Origin: Stenotrophomonas nitritireducens
GTDB lineage: Bacteria > Pseudomonadota > Gammaproteobacteria > Xanthomonadales > Xanthomonadaceae
Reading direction: 5' to 3'
Length of the DNA stretch: 64,000 bases
NCBI RefSeq assembly: GCF_001700965.1
Contig: NZ_CP016756.1
Span: 3,772,501 to 3,836,500, forward strand
The translations under genes were made by a program, and so were the position numbers. This document shows, piece after piece, positions 8,939 through 61,856 of the stretch (its first letter is position 1; every line of letters begins with the position of its first letter). Below the pieces are notes generated by a model that was given only the letters and a program-made list of their open reading frames with translations, did no database searches and was not told where the DNA came from.

Positions 8939-11900
8939 ATGAGTACCCCCGCCTCCCAGCTCCCGCAGGCGCAGCCTGAAACCACCCCGCTGCGCTTTGT
9001 CACCGCCGCCAGCCTGTTCGATGGCCACGATGCGGCCATCAACATCATGCGCCGCCTGATCCAGGCGCAGGGCGCGGAGGTCATCCACCTCGGCCACAAC
9101 CGCAGTGTGGAAGACGTGGTGCGTGCCGCGCTGCAGGAAGACGCCGATGCCATCGCGCTGTCGTCCTACCAGGGCGGCCACGTGGAGTACTTCAAGTACA
9201 TGGTCGACATGCTGCGGGAGAAGGGCGCCGGCCATATCAAGGTATTCGGTGGCGGTGGTGGCACCATCACCCCGGAAGAAATCCGCGAGCTGCAGGCCTA
9301 CGGTGTGGAGCGCATCTACCACCCCAACGACGGCATGAAGATGGGGCTGGTGGAGATGATCGAGGATGTGGTGGCGCGCGCCGGCAAGGCACGCGAAGCC
9401 GCTGCACGCCACGATGACATCGAAACGCCGTCGATCGAGGACGAGATTGGAATCGGCCGAGTGTTGTCGGAGCTGGAAGACGGCAGTCATTCCGAAGCGG
9501 AGCTGACTCATCTGCGTAAGCAGTGGCAGTTGGCCGCAGGTGCCACGCCGGTGATCGGCATCACCGGCACCGGTGGTGCGGGTAAGTCCTCGGTAACCGA
9601 CGAACTGCTCAATCGCTTTCTCGCCAGCTTCCCGCAGATGCGTATTGCAGTGATCTCGGTGGACCCGACCCGCCGCCGCACCGGTGGCGCGCTGCTGGGT
9701 GACCGCATCCGCATGAATTCGTTGCGTTCCAAGCGCGTTTACATGCGTTCGATGGCAACCCGACGCCAGCATGCGGCGATCAATACGGTGTTGCGCGATT
9801 GCATTGGTTTCCTCAAGTCGCTGCACTTCGATCTGGTGATCGTCGAGACCGCCGGTATTGGCCAATCCGATTCGGAGATCGTCGACCTGGTCGACTTCCC
9901 GATGTACGTGATGACCAGCGATTTCGGCGCGCCCAGCCAGCTGGAAAAGATCGACATGCTCGATTACGCCGAGCTGGTGGTGCTGAACAAGTTCGACAAG
10001 CGCGGTGCCGAAGACGCGCTGCGCGACGTGCGCAAGCAGTGGAAGCGCAATCGCGTCGCCTTCACCATGAAGGACGAGGATGTACCGGTCTATCCGACCA
10101 TCGCCAGCCAGTTCAATGATCCGGGCATCAGCTGGATGTTCGCCAACCTCTGCCGCCTGCTGAGCGCCAAGACCAAGGCCGAACTGGCGCCGCAGATCGA
10201 TACAACGCTGAAGGAGCCGCGCGCCACGGTATTGATACCGGGCAGCCGCGTGCGCTACCTGGCCGAAATCGCCGAGCAGGGCAGGGGCATCAACGCCCGC
10301 ATTGAATCGCAGGCCGAAGTGGCCGAGCGCGCGCAGGGGCTGTGGCAGGCCTTGAAGGAGCTGGACGATGCAGCGTTGCCGAATGCATTGGATCTGTATG
10401 CCGGCGATGCCTTGCTCCACTCTCAGGCCGGGGGAGAGGGTAAGGCTGCCGACAATGCCGATGCGTCGCACCCTCACCCCAACCCCTCTCCCGCCGGGAG
10501 AGGGGCTCAGGCTGTGGATCGCTCACTGCTGATCCTGCGTCAGCGCTACAACGATGCCGTGCAGTCGCTGGATTCCGAAGCCCTGCGCCTGCTGCGCGAG
10601 TGGCCTGCGCGTTTGAAGTCGATCACCGATCCGGTCAACGAGTACCAGGTGCGCGGCAAGACCATCCGCGTCGAGAACTACCGCGAGTCGCTCAGCCACC
10701 AGCAGATCCCCAAGATCGCGGCGCCCACTTACCGCAGCTGGGGCGAGTTGCTGGTGTTCCTGCAGAAGGAGAACCTGCCGGGCTCCTACCCGTACACCGG
10801 CGGCGTCTACCCGTACCGCCGCAGCGGCGAAGACCCGATTCGCATGTTTGCCGGAGAGGGCACGCCCGAGCGAACCAACCGCCGCTTCCATTACCTGAGC
10901 GTTGGCCAGCCGGCCGCGCGCCTGTCCACCGCGTTCGACAGCGTCACCCTGTATGGCGAAGACCCGGCGCCGCGCCCGGACATCTACGGCAAGATCGGCA
11001 ATTCCGGCGTCAACATTCCCACGCTGGACGACATGAAGAAGCTGTATTCCGGCTTCGACCTGTGCGCGCCAACCACCTCGGTGTCGATGACCATCAATGG
11101 CCCGGCGCCGATGATCCTGGCGATGTTCATGAACACCGCCGTCGACCAGCAGATCGAGAAATACCTGCAGGAAGACCCCGCGCGCTGGGCCGAGGCGGAA
11201 GCGAAGATCGCCAAGCTCTTTGAAGGCCGCAGCCGCCCGCAGTACCACGGCGAACTGCCGCCGACCAACAATGGGCTGGGCCTGGCCCTGCTCGGCGTCA
11301 CCGGCGACCAGCTGGTGGATGCCGATACCTATGCGCGGATCAAGGCTGAGACGCTGTCCACCGTGCGCGGCACGGTGCAGGCCGACATCCTCAAGGAAGA
11401 CCAGGCGCAGAACACCTGCATCTTCTCCACCGAGTTCGCGCTGCGGATGATGGGCGACATCCAGCAGTACTTCGTTGACCACAAGGTCCGCAATTTCTAT
11501 TCGGTGTCGATCTCCGGGTATCACATTGCCGAGGCGGGTGCGAATCCGATCAGCCAGTTGGCCTTCACCCTGTCCAATGGCTTCACCATCGTCGAGTACT
11601 ACCTGGCGCGTGGCATGAAGATCGATGACTTCGCGCCCAACCTGTCGTTCTTCTTCTCCAACGGCATGGACCCGGAGTACACGGTGATCGGCCGCGTTGC
11701 CCGCCGCATCTGGGCGCGTGCGATGCGCGAGCGCTACGGCGCCAACGAGCGCAGCCAGATGATGAAGTACCACATCCAGACCTCGGGCCGTTCGCTGCAC
11801 GCGCAGGAGATCCAGTTCAACGACATCCGCACCACGCTGCAGGCGCTGTATGCCTTGTTCGACAACTGCAACAGCCTGCATACCAATGCTTACGACGAGG

Positions 11901-12535
11901 CGATCACCACGCCGACCGAGGAGAGCGTGCGTCGCGCGGTGGCGATCCAGATGATCATCAACAAGGAGTTGGGGCTGAACTTCTGCGAGAACCCGTGGCA
12001 GGGCAGCTTCATCGTCGACAAGCTCACCGACATTGTCGAAGAAGCCGTCTACAAGGAGTTCGAGGCGATCAGCGAGCGCGGTGGCGTGCTTGGCGCGATG
12101 GACACGATGTACCAGCGCGGCAAGATCCAGGAAGAATCGCTGTACTACGAGCACAAGAAGCACGATGGCAGCCTGCCGCTGGTCGGCGTCAACATGTTCC
12201 TGCCCAAGGAGCATGCCGGTGAAGTGGCGACCGAGATCGAACTGATCCGCTCGACCGAGGAAGAGAAGGGCCAGCAGATCGAGAACGTGCACACCTGGCA
12301 GCGCAACCGCAATACGCTGGCGCCCGCCGGCGAAACCTCGCATTCGCACGAGGTTGAAGGCCTGGACGCGAACGAGGAAGCTCACGATGGCCACGGCCTG
12401 GCCTACCTGCAGAAGACCGCACGCGACCGCCGCAACGTGTTCGAGGCCCTGATCGAAGCAGTGAAGACCCACAGCCTCGGCCAGATCAGCCACGCCCTGT
12501 ACGACGTAGGCGGCGAGTACCGCCGCAATATGTAA
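8939..12535 (+). CDS. icmF: Fused isobutyryl-CoA mutase IcmF
   Basis: A 1198-residue adenosylcobalamin enzyme that interconverts isobutyryl-CoA and n-butyryl-CoA. Domains in order: B12-binding (about 18-150, FDGHDAAINIM and GGGGTITPEEI), a MeaI-type G-protein chaperone domain with P-loop GTGGAGKS at 210-217, and the acyl-CoA mutase barrel (about 590-1150). This N-to-C order of B12, GTPase and substrate domains is diagnostic of IcmF, not methylmalonyl-CoA mutase. It is about 100 residues longer than classical IcmF proteins. Part of the excess (about residues 494-525, with HPHPNPSPAGRG) is an in-frame copy of a dispersed intergenic repeat placed in the linker between GTPase and mutase. The frame is intact on both sides, so the protein is probably functional. 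Confidence 0.95.
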   Translation: MSTPASQLPQAQPETTPLRFVTAASLFDGHDAAINIMRRLIQAQGAEVIHLGHNRSVEDVVRAALQEDADAIALSSYQGGHVEYFKYMVDMLREKGAGHIKVFGGGGGTITPEEIRELQAYGVERIYHPNDGMKMGLVEMIEDVVARAGKAREAAARHDDIETPSIEDEIGIGRVLSELEDGSHSEAELTHLRKQWQLAAGATPVIGITGTGGAGKSSVTDELLNRFLASFPQMRIAVISVDPTRRRTGGALLGDRIRMNSLRSKRVYMRSMATRRQHAAINTVLRDCIGFLKSLHFDLVIVETAGIGQSDSEIVDLVDFPMYVMTSDFGAPSQLEKIDMLDYAELVVLNKFDKRGAEDALRDVRKQWKRNRVAFTMKDEDVPVYPTIASQFNDPGISWMFANLCRLLSAKTKAELAPQIDTTLKEPRATVLIPGSRVRYLAEIAEQGRGINARIESQAEVAERAQGLWQALKELDDAALPNALDLYAGDALLHSQAGGEGKAADNADASHPHPNPSPAGRGAQAVDRSLLILRQRYNDAVQSLDSEALRLLREWPARLKSITDPVNEYQVRGKTIRVENYRESLSHQQIPKIAAPTYRSWGELLVFLQKENLPGSYPYTGGVYPYRRSGEDPIRMFAGEGTPERTNRRFHYLSVGQPAARLSTAFDSVTLYGEDPAPRPDIYGKIGNSGVNIPTLDDMKKLYSGFDLCAPTTSVSMTINGPAPMILAMFMNTAVDQQIEKYLQEDPARWAEAEAKIAKLFEGRSRPQYHGELPPTNNGLGLALLGVTGDQLVDADTYARIKAETLSTVRGTVQADILKEDQAQNTCIFSTEFALRMMGDIQQYFVDHKVRNFYSVSISGYHIAEAGANPISQLAFTLSNGFTIVEYYLARGMKIDDFAPNLSFFFSNGMDPEYTVIGRVARRIWARAMRERYGANERSQMMKYHIQTSGRSLHAQEIQFNDIRTTLQALYALFDNCNSLHTNAYDEAITTPTEESVRRAVAIQMIINKELGLNFCENPWQGSFIVDKLTDIVEEAVYKEFEAISERGGVLGAMDTMYQRGKIQEESLYYEHKKHDGSLPLVGVNMFLPKEHAGEVATEIELIRSTEEEKGQQIENVHTWQRNRNTLAPAGETSHSHEVEGLDANEEAHDGHGLAYLQKTARDRRNVFEALIEAVKTHSLGQISHALYDVGGEYRRNM
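10414..10512. repeat. Intergenic-type repeat inserted in frame within icmF
   Basis: Positions 10471-10510 carry the CCCTCACCCCAACCCCTCTC-type element, ending CGGGAGAGGGGCTCAG. The same element occurs between genes at 57801, 60861, 61546, 61658 and 61771. Just before it (10420-10445) lies a second GGGGGAGAGGG-type half element. Together they add roughly 30 codons and keep the reading frame. Confidence 0.8.
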
Positions 12536-12546
12536 GCGCGCGCCCC

Positions 12547-12887
12547 GTAGTGCCGAGCCATGCTCGGCAGAGGCCTTCCCAGTAGAGCCCAGCCGAGCAT
12601 GGCTCGGCTCTACCCAGATGCCATGCAGCACTCACCCGTAGTGCCGAGCCATGCTCGGCAAGGGCCTTCCCGCTAAAGCCCCAGCCGAGCATGGCTCGGC
12701 TCTACCAAGAAGCCATACAGCACTCCCTGTAGTGCCGAGCCATGCTCGGCAGAGGCCTTCCCAGTAGAGCCCAGCCGAGCATGGCTCGGCTCTACCCAGA
12801 TGCCATGCAGCGCTCACCCGTAGTGCCGAGCCATGCTCGGCAAGGGCCTTCCCAGTAGAGCCCCAGCCGAGCACGGCTCGGCTCTAC
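12547..12887. repeat. Tandem array of paired SMAG palindromes, 91-bp period
   Basis: Four units begin at 12547, 12638, 12729 and 12820, exactly 91 bases apart. Each holds a GTAGTGCCGAGCCATG…-type palindrome and, about 20 bases later, an inverted partner ending …GCTCGGCTCTAC, so each unit can form a double stem. These are GTAG-headed REP (SMAG) elements typical of Stenotrophomonas. The spacers are also nearly identical, showing tandem duplication rather than four independent insertions. The array fills the gap between icmF and the LD-carboxypeptidase gene and could act as a terminator or mRNA stabiliser for icmF. Confidence 0.92.
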
Positions 12888-12936
12888 CGCTGGGCGCTGT
12901 TACTCTTGGGCCAACATCCCGGGCACAGGCAACAAC

Positions 12937-57800: not shown

Positions 57801-57840
57801 CCCTCACCCCAATCCCTGTCCCGGAGGGAAAGGGGCTCAG
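57801..57840. repeat. CCCTCACCCCAAT-type repeat overlapping the HAD gene stop
   Basis: CCCTCACCCCAATCCCTGTC continues CCGGAGGGAAAGGGGCTCAG. It is a diverged copy of the repeat found in icmF and at 61546, 61658 and 61771. The TGA of the HAD gene (57837-57839) is at its edge. Confidence 0.8.
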
Positions 57841-60778: not shown

Positions 60779-60906
60779 CCTCCCTTCTCCCGTTTACGGG
60801 AGAAGGTGCCCCGAAGGGGCGGATGAGGGGGAGCTTTTGACTTTGTTTAGCTAGAAGCTGCCCTCACCCCACCCCCTCTCCCGTGAACGGGAGAGGGGCT
60901 TTGAGC
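60779..60906. repeat. Two hairpin repeats of the CTCTCCC…GGGAG type
   Basis: One hairpin (CTCCTCCCTTCTCCCGTTTACG onward as CCTTCTCCCGT / ACGGGAGAAGG, 60783-60806, then GCCCCGAAGGGGC) is followed at 60861-60906 by a CCCTCACCCCACCCCCTCTC-type element with CCGTGAACGG at its centre. The latter matches those at 61546 and in icmF. Confidence 0.75.
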
Positions 60907-60922
60907 AGAGCATCAAGCCGGC

Positions 60923-61369
60923 TTACTGGTCGCGCAGCCAGGTCTGGGTGCGGCAGATGAAGGCGATGCAGCCGGACACGTCCAGTTTGCGGCCGTTGTC
61001 CACCAGCGCCACCTTGGAGCTGTAGGTCTTGCCCTTGGCCGGATCCAGGATGGTGCCGTTGGCCCACTTGTTGGCGCCGTCCGGACGTACGTTCCAGAGA
61101 ATGGTCATGCCCTCGATCGGCTTGCCCTTGTTGGCCCCTTCACACTTGTTGCAGAGCGGGTGCGGGCCGTGCTCGGACTGCAGCACCTGCAGGACCTTGC
61201 CACTGAGGGTGCCGTTGGCGGCCTGGCTGATCTCGACGATGGACTTCACCCGGCCGGTTTCGTCATCGATGGTGCGCCAGCGGCCGGCAGCGCTGTCGCT
61301 GGCGCTGGCGGAGAAGCCGGCGGCCAGCAGCGGCAGGGCCAGCAACAGGGTCTTGAAAGTGGTGCGCAT
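60923..61369 (-). CDS. Exported DUF2147 protein
   Basis: A 148-residue exported protein (signal MRTTFKTLLLALPLLAAGFS, cleavage after ASA). It matches the DUF2147 family: AAGRWRTIDDETGRVKSIVE, ILWNVRPDGANKWANGTILD and GKTYSSKVALVDNGRKLDVS. Family members are beta-barrel-like periplasmic proteins of unknown function. Cys pairs CNKCEG and CIAFIC might form disulfides. The start follows GAGGGGAAAC. Confidence 0.9.
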   Translation of the reverse strand: MRTTFKTLLLALPLLAAGFSASASDSAAGRWRTIDDETGRVKSIVEISQAANGTLSGKVLQVLQSEHGPHPLCNKCEGANKGKPIEGMTILWNVRPDGANKWANGTILDPAKGKTYSSKVALVDNGRKLDVSGCIAFICRTQTWLRDQ

Positions 61370-61492
61370 GTTTCCCCTCCCAGGGTGGGTTTGATCAGCC
61401 GCCGACGGCGCTGTTACGGGGCGAATGTAACCGCATTCGGTCCCGTACGGAATCCGCAGTGCAGCAGATTTTCGGTGAACGGGAGAGCGGGT

Positions 61493-61816
61493 GTAGTGCC
61501 GAGCCATGCTCGGCAGGGGCTTTACCGGTAATGCCCCAGAAGCAGCCCTCACCCCAACCCCTCTCCCGTGAACGGGAGAGGGGCTTTGAGCAAGAGCGGG
61601 GGCTGCAGTGCCGAGCCATGCTTGGCAGGGGCTTTGCCGGTAAGGCCCCAGAAGCTGCCCTCACCTCAACCCCTCTCCCGCAGGCGGGAGAGAGGCTTTG
61701 AGCAGAAGCGGGGTTTTGTAGTGCCGAGCCATGCTCGGCAGGGGCTTTCCCGGCAATGCTCCAGAAGCTGCCCTCACCCCAACCCCTCTCCCGCAGGCGG
61801 AAGAGGGGCTTTGAGC
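61493..61816. repeat. Three tandem composite units (SMAG plus CCCTCACCCC element), about 112 bp each
   Basis: SMAG palindromes begin at 61493, 61605 (head GCAG instead of GTAG) and 61718. Each is followed by GGGGCTTT…CCCCAGAAGC and a CCCTCACCCCAACCCCTCTC element (61546, 61658, 61771) with its inverted half GGGAGAGGGGCTTTGAGC. The repeat period is 112-113 bases. No gene is visible from 61370 to 61856; promoters for DUF2147 must lie near 61370-61490. Confidence 0.9.
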
Positions 61817-61856
61817 GAAAGCGGGGCACATACCGCGCGCTGCCTTGCTCTGCTTA

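Follow-up and report, generated by a model that had tools for sequence, protein, structure and literature searches.

A REP-like mobile doublet very probably entered a length-tolerant loop of the fused isobutyryl-CoA mutase/GTPase IcmF of Stenotrophomonas nitritireducens, and the same loop would act in the Lysobacterales as a recurrent acceptor in which such elements are inserted, collapse, decay and are replaced. In the window (the whole stretch of 64,000 nucleotides that was analysed), the icmF product scores 1663.2 bits against the NCBIfam IcmF equivalog NF045497.1 (cut-off 1500), shows the Pfam order of IcmF (B12-binding, MeaB, MM_CoA_mutase) and matches the structure 4xc6 in three stretches. 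The insert is a REP-like doublet lying in frame between the GTPase and mutase domains, and apart from it the protein is intact. The original prediction had placed an in-frame copy of an intergenic repeat in this linker. Indeed, CCCTCACCCCAACCCCTCTC is found at exactly 10471-10490 inside the frame of 1198 codons, and the entire doublet fits the span that had been predicted. The prediction of a REP-like element held, but not that of a single repeat, since two hairpins, inverted relative to each other, make up the insert (Table 1); the second unit, at 10471-10507, encodes a peptide containing HPHPNPSPAGRGA. An AlphaFold2 model made with 38 sequences places a loop (residues 495-526) between the helices 435-474 and 528-542, with pLDDT of about 30 in the loop and about 75-89 in its flanks; the whole model is poor (mean pLDDT 50.5) and only this local contrast was used.

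Table 1. Position of icmF, of the parts of its insert and of further repeat copies in the window.
Feature	Coordinates	Strand	Basis or remark
icmF, fused isobutyryl-CoA mutase/GTPase	8939..12535	+	1198 codons, uninterrupted ORF
Entire repeat-derived insert, interdomain linker	10414..10512	+	about residues 493-524; missing in empty-linker relatives
First hairpin of the doublet, decayed, inverted relative to the second	10418..10440	-	intact counterpart CCCTCTCCCGCCGGGAGAGGGG at the same place in relative L005
30-nt spacer between the hairpins	10441..10470	+	sequence reading
Second repeat unit, CCCTCACCCCAAC tag and perfect hairpin	10471..10507	+	exact 20-mer; hairpin 10484-10504
Repeat copy outside icmF	57801..57827	+	repeat-family scan (D9), 20-mer match
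Repeat copy outside icmF	60861..60887	+	repeat-family scan (D9), 20-mer match
Repeat copy outside icmF	61546..61572	+	repeat-family scan (D9), 20-mer match
Repeat copy outside icmF	61658..61684	+	repeat-family scan (D9), 20-mer match
Repeat copy outside icmF	61771..61797	+	repeat-family scan (D9), 20-mer match

The repeat is multicopy. The 20-mer has six matches in the window, the exact icmF copy and five with up to 3 mismatches, against 0.00 expected from 100 shuffles, which agrees with the earlier claim that the element is seen elsewhere in this stretch. About 180 copies were found genome-wide (G000, 4.54 Mb): 188 at up to 2 mismatches, with 152 for a reversed-pattern control, and 177 of a related pattern at 1 mismatch, with 45 for its control. 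We attribute the high reversed control to the pattern being pyrimidine-rich and nearly symmetric, and therefore weight was put on the window shuffle and on the hairpins that follow the inspected genomic copies. According to a codon model, a continuous coding frame surrounds two of 98 distinct copies (a part of the 188), those in icmF and murL. The window element is a dispersed REP-like repeat, namely a short palindrome in many copies that lie mostly outside coding frames. Judged by its sequence, the icmF insert would also qualify as RPE-like, being in frame, missing from orthologues and located in a gene that is intact elsewhere. Directly behind icmF (12547-12890) and again at 60807-61826, there together with copies of CCCTCACCCC, lie arrays of GTAGTGCCGAGC..GCTCGGC repeats, which we take to be SMAG-type repeats. 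The name SMAG also appears in PMC3733652.

Presence of the insert is lineage-specific. The nearest named IcmF, from Stenotrophomonas terrae (P0001), is 98% identical in the alignment. An icmF match was obtained in 17 of 91 Stenotrophomonas genomes, and the gene is patchy in the genus, with a convincing copy in 16. The linker could be read in 15 genomes, being filled in 6 and empty in 9, as anticipated for the invasion of a gene, and in close relatives such as S. humi this place reads DALTDAAADNSIRTLRQ or nearly so, with no insert. A single-hairpin state exists among the closest relatives: G087, 99% identical over the best-matching stretch, has one hairpin where the window has two; the doublet is intact in G014, whereas G081, its sister in the tree, has one hairpin; and two proteins both named S. 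terrae carry a doublet (P0001) and a single hairpin (P0008). This state had not been foreseen in the original prediction, nor had the other repeat families in the same loop or the filling of other IcmF loops.

At the class level, 43 of 185 sampled genomes gave a match, and 27 of the 28 loci fetched gave a linker (L206 none). A stretch of 82 residues in the window corresponds to 17-71 residues in 26 of the 27 loci from other families, the one left having no row in the alignment and the locus with 17 residues (L201) being in a broken frame. The same stretch comprises 52 residues in L052, an empty linker of the order, and 118 in L182 of the same family. Aligned to the crystallised Cupriavidus IcmF, residues 479-542 of the window protein (64 residues) face only 16. 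Thus, distant relatives do not all share the segment, as would be expected of a plain linker, and the sampled linkers of other families are shorter; the segment is not an ordinary linker.

To follow this loop, 589 stretches were confirmed and the best 80 of them named, and for this reason the named set leans to near relatives. Most of these 80 carry genus titles that we take to belong to the Lysobacterales. The 84 linkers compared come from 79 of the 80 named loci (L105 had no segment) and six filled members of the genus, with one duplicate dropped. A recognisable palindromic repeat is present in 40 of the 84, while 19 are empty and 25 were classed as other, using family patterns defined after the linkers had been viewed; L055 and L068 look like decayed repeats and were left uncounted among the others. 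The filled linkers comprise 19 with CTCYCCC hairpins, the kind found in the window (family A), 10 with GTAGRGCGG (family B), five with GTAGGAGC and GCGCCCCATGGGCGC (family C), four with CCCSGCG and the peptide VIPAKAGIQ (family D), and two of mixed families. By eye, the stems differ among these four families. Perfect 7-bp hairpins occur in 42 of the 84 linkers, compared with 178 of 1680 windows of matched length taken from other parts of icmF; by class they were found in all A (19/19), B (10/10), D (4/4) and mixed (2/2) linkers, in no C linker (0/5), and in 1/19 empty and 6/25 other linkers. The GTAG ... CTAC doublet anatomy exists in other icmF genes, the GTAG tag being present for example in L062 and L053. 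Further repeat-like peptides, including the TGSGRT kind (P0081), occupy the same place in many of the 120 proteins listed out of 2940. As 25 of the 84 linkers vary without a recognised repeat, insertion of such elements is not the only way in which the loop changes. In four loci titled Arenimonas (L092, L093, L094 and L099) the same linker has a different conserved insert, CGERR..RRK.VF.W, with no recognised repeat, and inserts resembling it by eye are found in L072, L078 and L086.

The genomes of carriers usually hold further copies of the repeat found in their linker. The B pattern has 5-156 copies in 11 of 11 carrier genomes and none in three short-linker genomes (G071, L052 and L105), the control giving 0. 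The C pattern has 3-464 copies in 6 of 6 carriers (control 0-1), none in L048, classed as other, or in two short-linker genomes, and 333 matches in G000, whose own icmF linker has none. The D pattern gave 13-186 copies in 4 of 4 carriers, one in the L052 genome and none in the L105 genome or in G000. The variant GGGCGGATGAGGG, located in the linkers of L045, L049, L061, L068, L081 and L104, with related hairpins in L033 and L046, has 11-38 copies in 8 of 8 genomes tried, 59 in G000 and none in two short-linker genomes. Moreover, wherever the comparison was possible (9 of 9 carriers), the B insert in icmF has the stem type that predominates in its host genome; the other two of the 11 B carriers fit neither stem type and were dropped.

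The window pattern itself has 177 copies in G000, 164 in G087, 54 in G014 and 10 in G081; it replaced an earlier pattern that exceeded the Stenotrophomonas repeat by one base and gave low counts for G087, G014 and G081. It has 0 to 27 copies in ten named genomes that hold or possibly hold an A-like or mixed insert. The genome of L051, an A carrier, has none by the window pattern and 15 by the one-base-longer pattern; those of L052 and L105 also have none by the window pattern, and L105 has 33 by the longer one. However, presence of the repeat in a genome does not imply its presence in icmF, since G071 and G018 have 127 and 77 copies of the window repeat although their icmF linker is empty.

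The content of the loop has changed many times. On a quick tree from 994 conserved columns, with the variable loops left out, parsimony requires the state of the linker to change 44 times or more (16, 11, 6 and 4 for families A, B, C and D taken alone), counted without separating gain from loss. Family switching is seen in sister pairs that carry different families (L061/L062, L088/L104, L051/L106, L049/L101, L103/L107 and L102/L108). A near-clean collapse is observed in two further sister pairs: L006 lacks 78 nt of L005, deleted between copies of CCCCTCTCCCG, with 2/90 mismatches, and L046 lacks 75 nt of L045, with 2/87 mismatches, the frame being kept in both. The pair L001/L002 was rejected as a simple collapse, because a single deletion leaves 14 mismatches; by eye, a collapse of 66 nt together with a change of 3 nt fits it. 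The L064 linker has two inserts in tandem, C followed by B, the latter placed as is the sole insert of its tree sister L053, and by eye the left flank of the L064 linker is partly present twice.

It is likely, then, that a palindromic doublet was inserted into the loop that joins the GTPase and mutase parts and tolerates changes in length, and that insertions survive only if the frame stays open, so that the doublet would add about 30 residues to the protein. In the Lysobacterales, elements from four or more families, each with its own stem, would have entered the loop in this way, some of them common to sister species, and recombination between the two palindromes would convert a doublet into a single hairpin, followed by decay and replacement. 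Each of the eight example elements that were translated can be read through in one or more forward frames, and in each of the five with GTAG a TAG stop closes one forward frame; frame filtering through selection therefore suffices to explain the open readings. The window insert is probably translated, to judge from its open frame and the intact downstream domain, and presumably neutral in IcmF. For the GTAG families, the process might be single-strand transposition of the Y1/RAYT type, the element being joined to the CT within a leucine codon. In ten distinct GTAG/GTGG-type inserts the first nucleotide immediately follows CTY, always at the same codon boundary, and the S. maltophilia TnpAREP is described as cleaving at the CT adjoining the REP (PMC8266576), which together make insertion at this CT plausible. 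Excision of whole doublets has been reported in Pseudomonas (PMC3116915). The window insert itself has no GTAG. The two Y1_Tnp genes found in G000 (L139 and L140, at G000:C1:4424873 and 3354078) have GTAG repeats on their flanks, of the GTAGGAGCGGC family in one case and of the GTAGTGCCGAGC family in the other, and neither is flanked by the CCCTCACCCC family of the window, for which no linked RAYT was found in that genome.

This loop of IcmF is not alone in accepting repeats. In the linker, 33 of 35 repeat clusters lie in frame, as opposed to none of 26 clusters in the 570 kb flanking the named genes, where family patterns were scanned and clusters away from the locus ends were taken; the frame method, trained on icmF, gave the right call for 390 of 395 random positions within that gene, the one in which its sensitivity was measured. 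Three further IcmF loops, numbered by L052, are filled in some loci: after residue 172 in L034 and L043, after residue 432 in L041, L043 and L087, and after residue 1115 in L054, L066, L068, L069 and L087. Flags on other loops of L050, L059 and L084 were judged to be chance, and that on L103 was also left out of these lists, its match looking real. A further in-frame copy of the window repeat, reversed in orientation (ESLSPRERGWGEG), lies in murL (L165:844-2223, near 3626137 of G000). Repeat-like peptides fill this MurL loop in many of the 120 proteins listed out of 6260 (for example P0121, P0126, P0143 and P0164), while other listed homologues have none (P0190). Since MurL has a similar loop, IcmF is not unique and, with the other IcmF loops also filled, the phenomenon is the recurrent use of a few tolerant loops, of which the main icmF linker is the strongest case seen.

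Other explanations must be weighed against recurrent insertion. That the segment is simply a proline/glycine-rich linker of low complexity, resembling a repeat by composition, is scarcely credible: proline, glycine and alanine are often abundant in linkers, and a good part of the 84 vary with no recognised repeat, but an exact 20-mer that shuffles do not yield, the excess of hairpins over matched windows and multicopy repeats specific to the host genomes all argue against it. For the window insert, its exact multicopy match and the empty close relatives rule this explanation out. A single ancient insertion, later matched to the repeats of each genome by gene conversion, is improbable. The GTAG/GTGG-type inserts of several genera do share the same start nucleotide after the same leucine codon, the B stem follows that of the host, and the sisters L053 and L064 have the B insert at matching flanks. 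However, interconversion is not expected between families whose stems differ by eye, sister species differ in family, and empty relatives stand between carriers in the tree.

Recurrence at one site could also mean that the inserts are favoured, a longer linker or an mRNA hairpin tuning IcmF through domain motion in B12 loading or through translation pausing. Recurrence in one gene across many genera, the filling of three other loops of the same protein and the reported G-protein-driven opening of the mutase active site in IcmF (PMC10481361) would agree with this idea; nevertheless, we consider it unlikely, as 19 of the 84 linkers are empty and insert lengths vary widely, the families differ in sequence, MurL shows the same pattern with no obvious common function, and the RNA folding of the window insert in the message is not unusual (z -1.2). 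Somewhat less unlikely, yet still doubtful, is that the icmF site is a preferred transposition target and not merely tolerant. The identical position of the GTAG/GTGG-type inserts after CTY and the cleavage at CT reported for the S. maltophilia enzyme (PMC8266576) point in this direction, but CT dinucleotides are common, families A and D enter the same loop without a GTAG tag, and other loops are used too. Recurrent insertion into a tolerant loop is thus the reading that we prefer.

Palindromic repeats in coding sequences have precedents. Monomers and dimers of REPs of the GTAG and CGTC families were described inside coding genes (Di Nocera et al. 2013, PMC3733652), more than half of those in ORFs being dimers or groups that encode 20-30 residues, with flexible linkers suggested as their hosts; in recB of X. 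campestris and X. oryzae different REPs were found at about the same site. That site, as described there, involves two species, in contrast to the four families and many genera of the icmF loop, and the window family differs from those REPs in having no GTAG tag; the word mutase is absent from the main text of that article. In the Rickettsia palindromic elements, the classic case, palindromes lie in frame in many genes and are read as extra peptide (PMC10969869). The icmF insert likewise is an in-frame palindromic repeat in an otherwise intact gene, presumably read as peptide, but the Rickettsia families, as portrayed in that source, spread over many genes, whereas several families converge on one icmF loop. 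The inverted doublets of short palindromes described for REPIN, RAYT and TnpAREP (PMC3116915, PMC8266576) share their anatomy with the GTAG-type icmF inserts, unlike the CCCTCACCCC doublet of the window with neither GTAG nor a linked RAYT found in G000. By motif, the window family may also be related to the TIR repeats of TIRYT transposases (PMC3733652), which occur as dimers: GGGGTGAG, the complement of the window tag, fits GGGGWSAS by eye; however, no transposase flanked by the window family was found in G000. Thus, REPs in ORFs, the Rickettsia elements and a two-species recB site were already known, and in the literature searched, covered partially and mostly as titles and abstract openings, neither a published icmF case nor an order-wide recurrent site used by several families was found.

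As one orthologous loop displays at least four families and, in living relatives, empty, doublet, collapsed and tandem states, the rate, direction and fitness cost of the conversion of mobile non-coding DNA into protein become measurable. It is possible, although we put this forward only tentatively, that loops of the Lysobacterales such as the IcmF linkers and that of MurL are standing acceptors for cycling palindromes, through which selfish non-coding DNA would regularly supply linkers and the hosts would gain linker variability. Linker peptides of annotated proteins, such as HPHPNPSPAGRG, VIPAKAGIQ and VGAASAAT, may be fossils of DNA repeats and not protein motifs.
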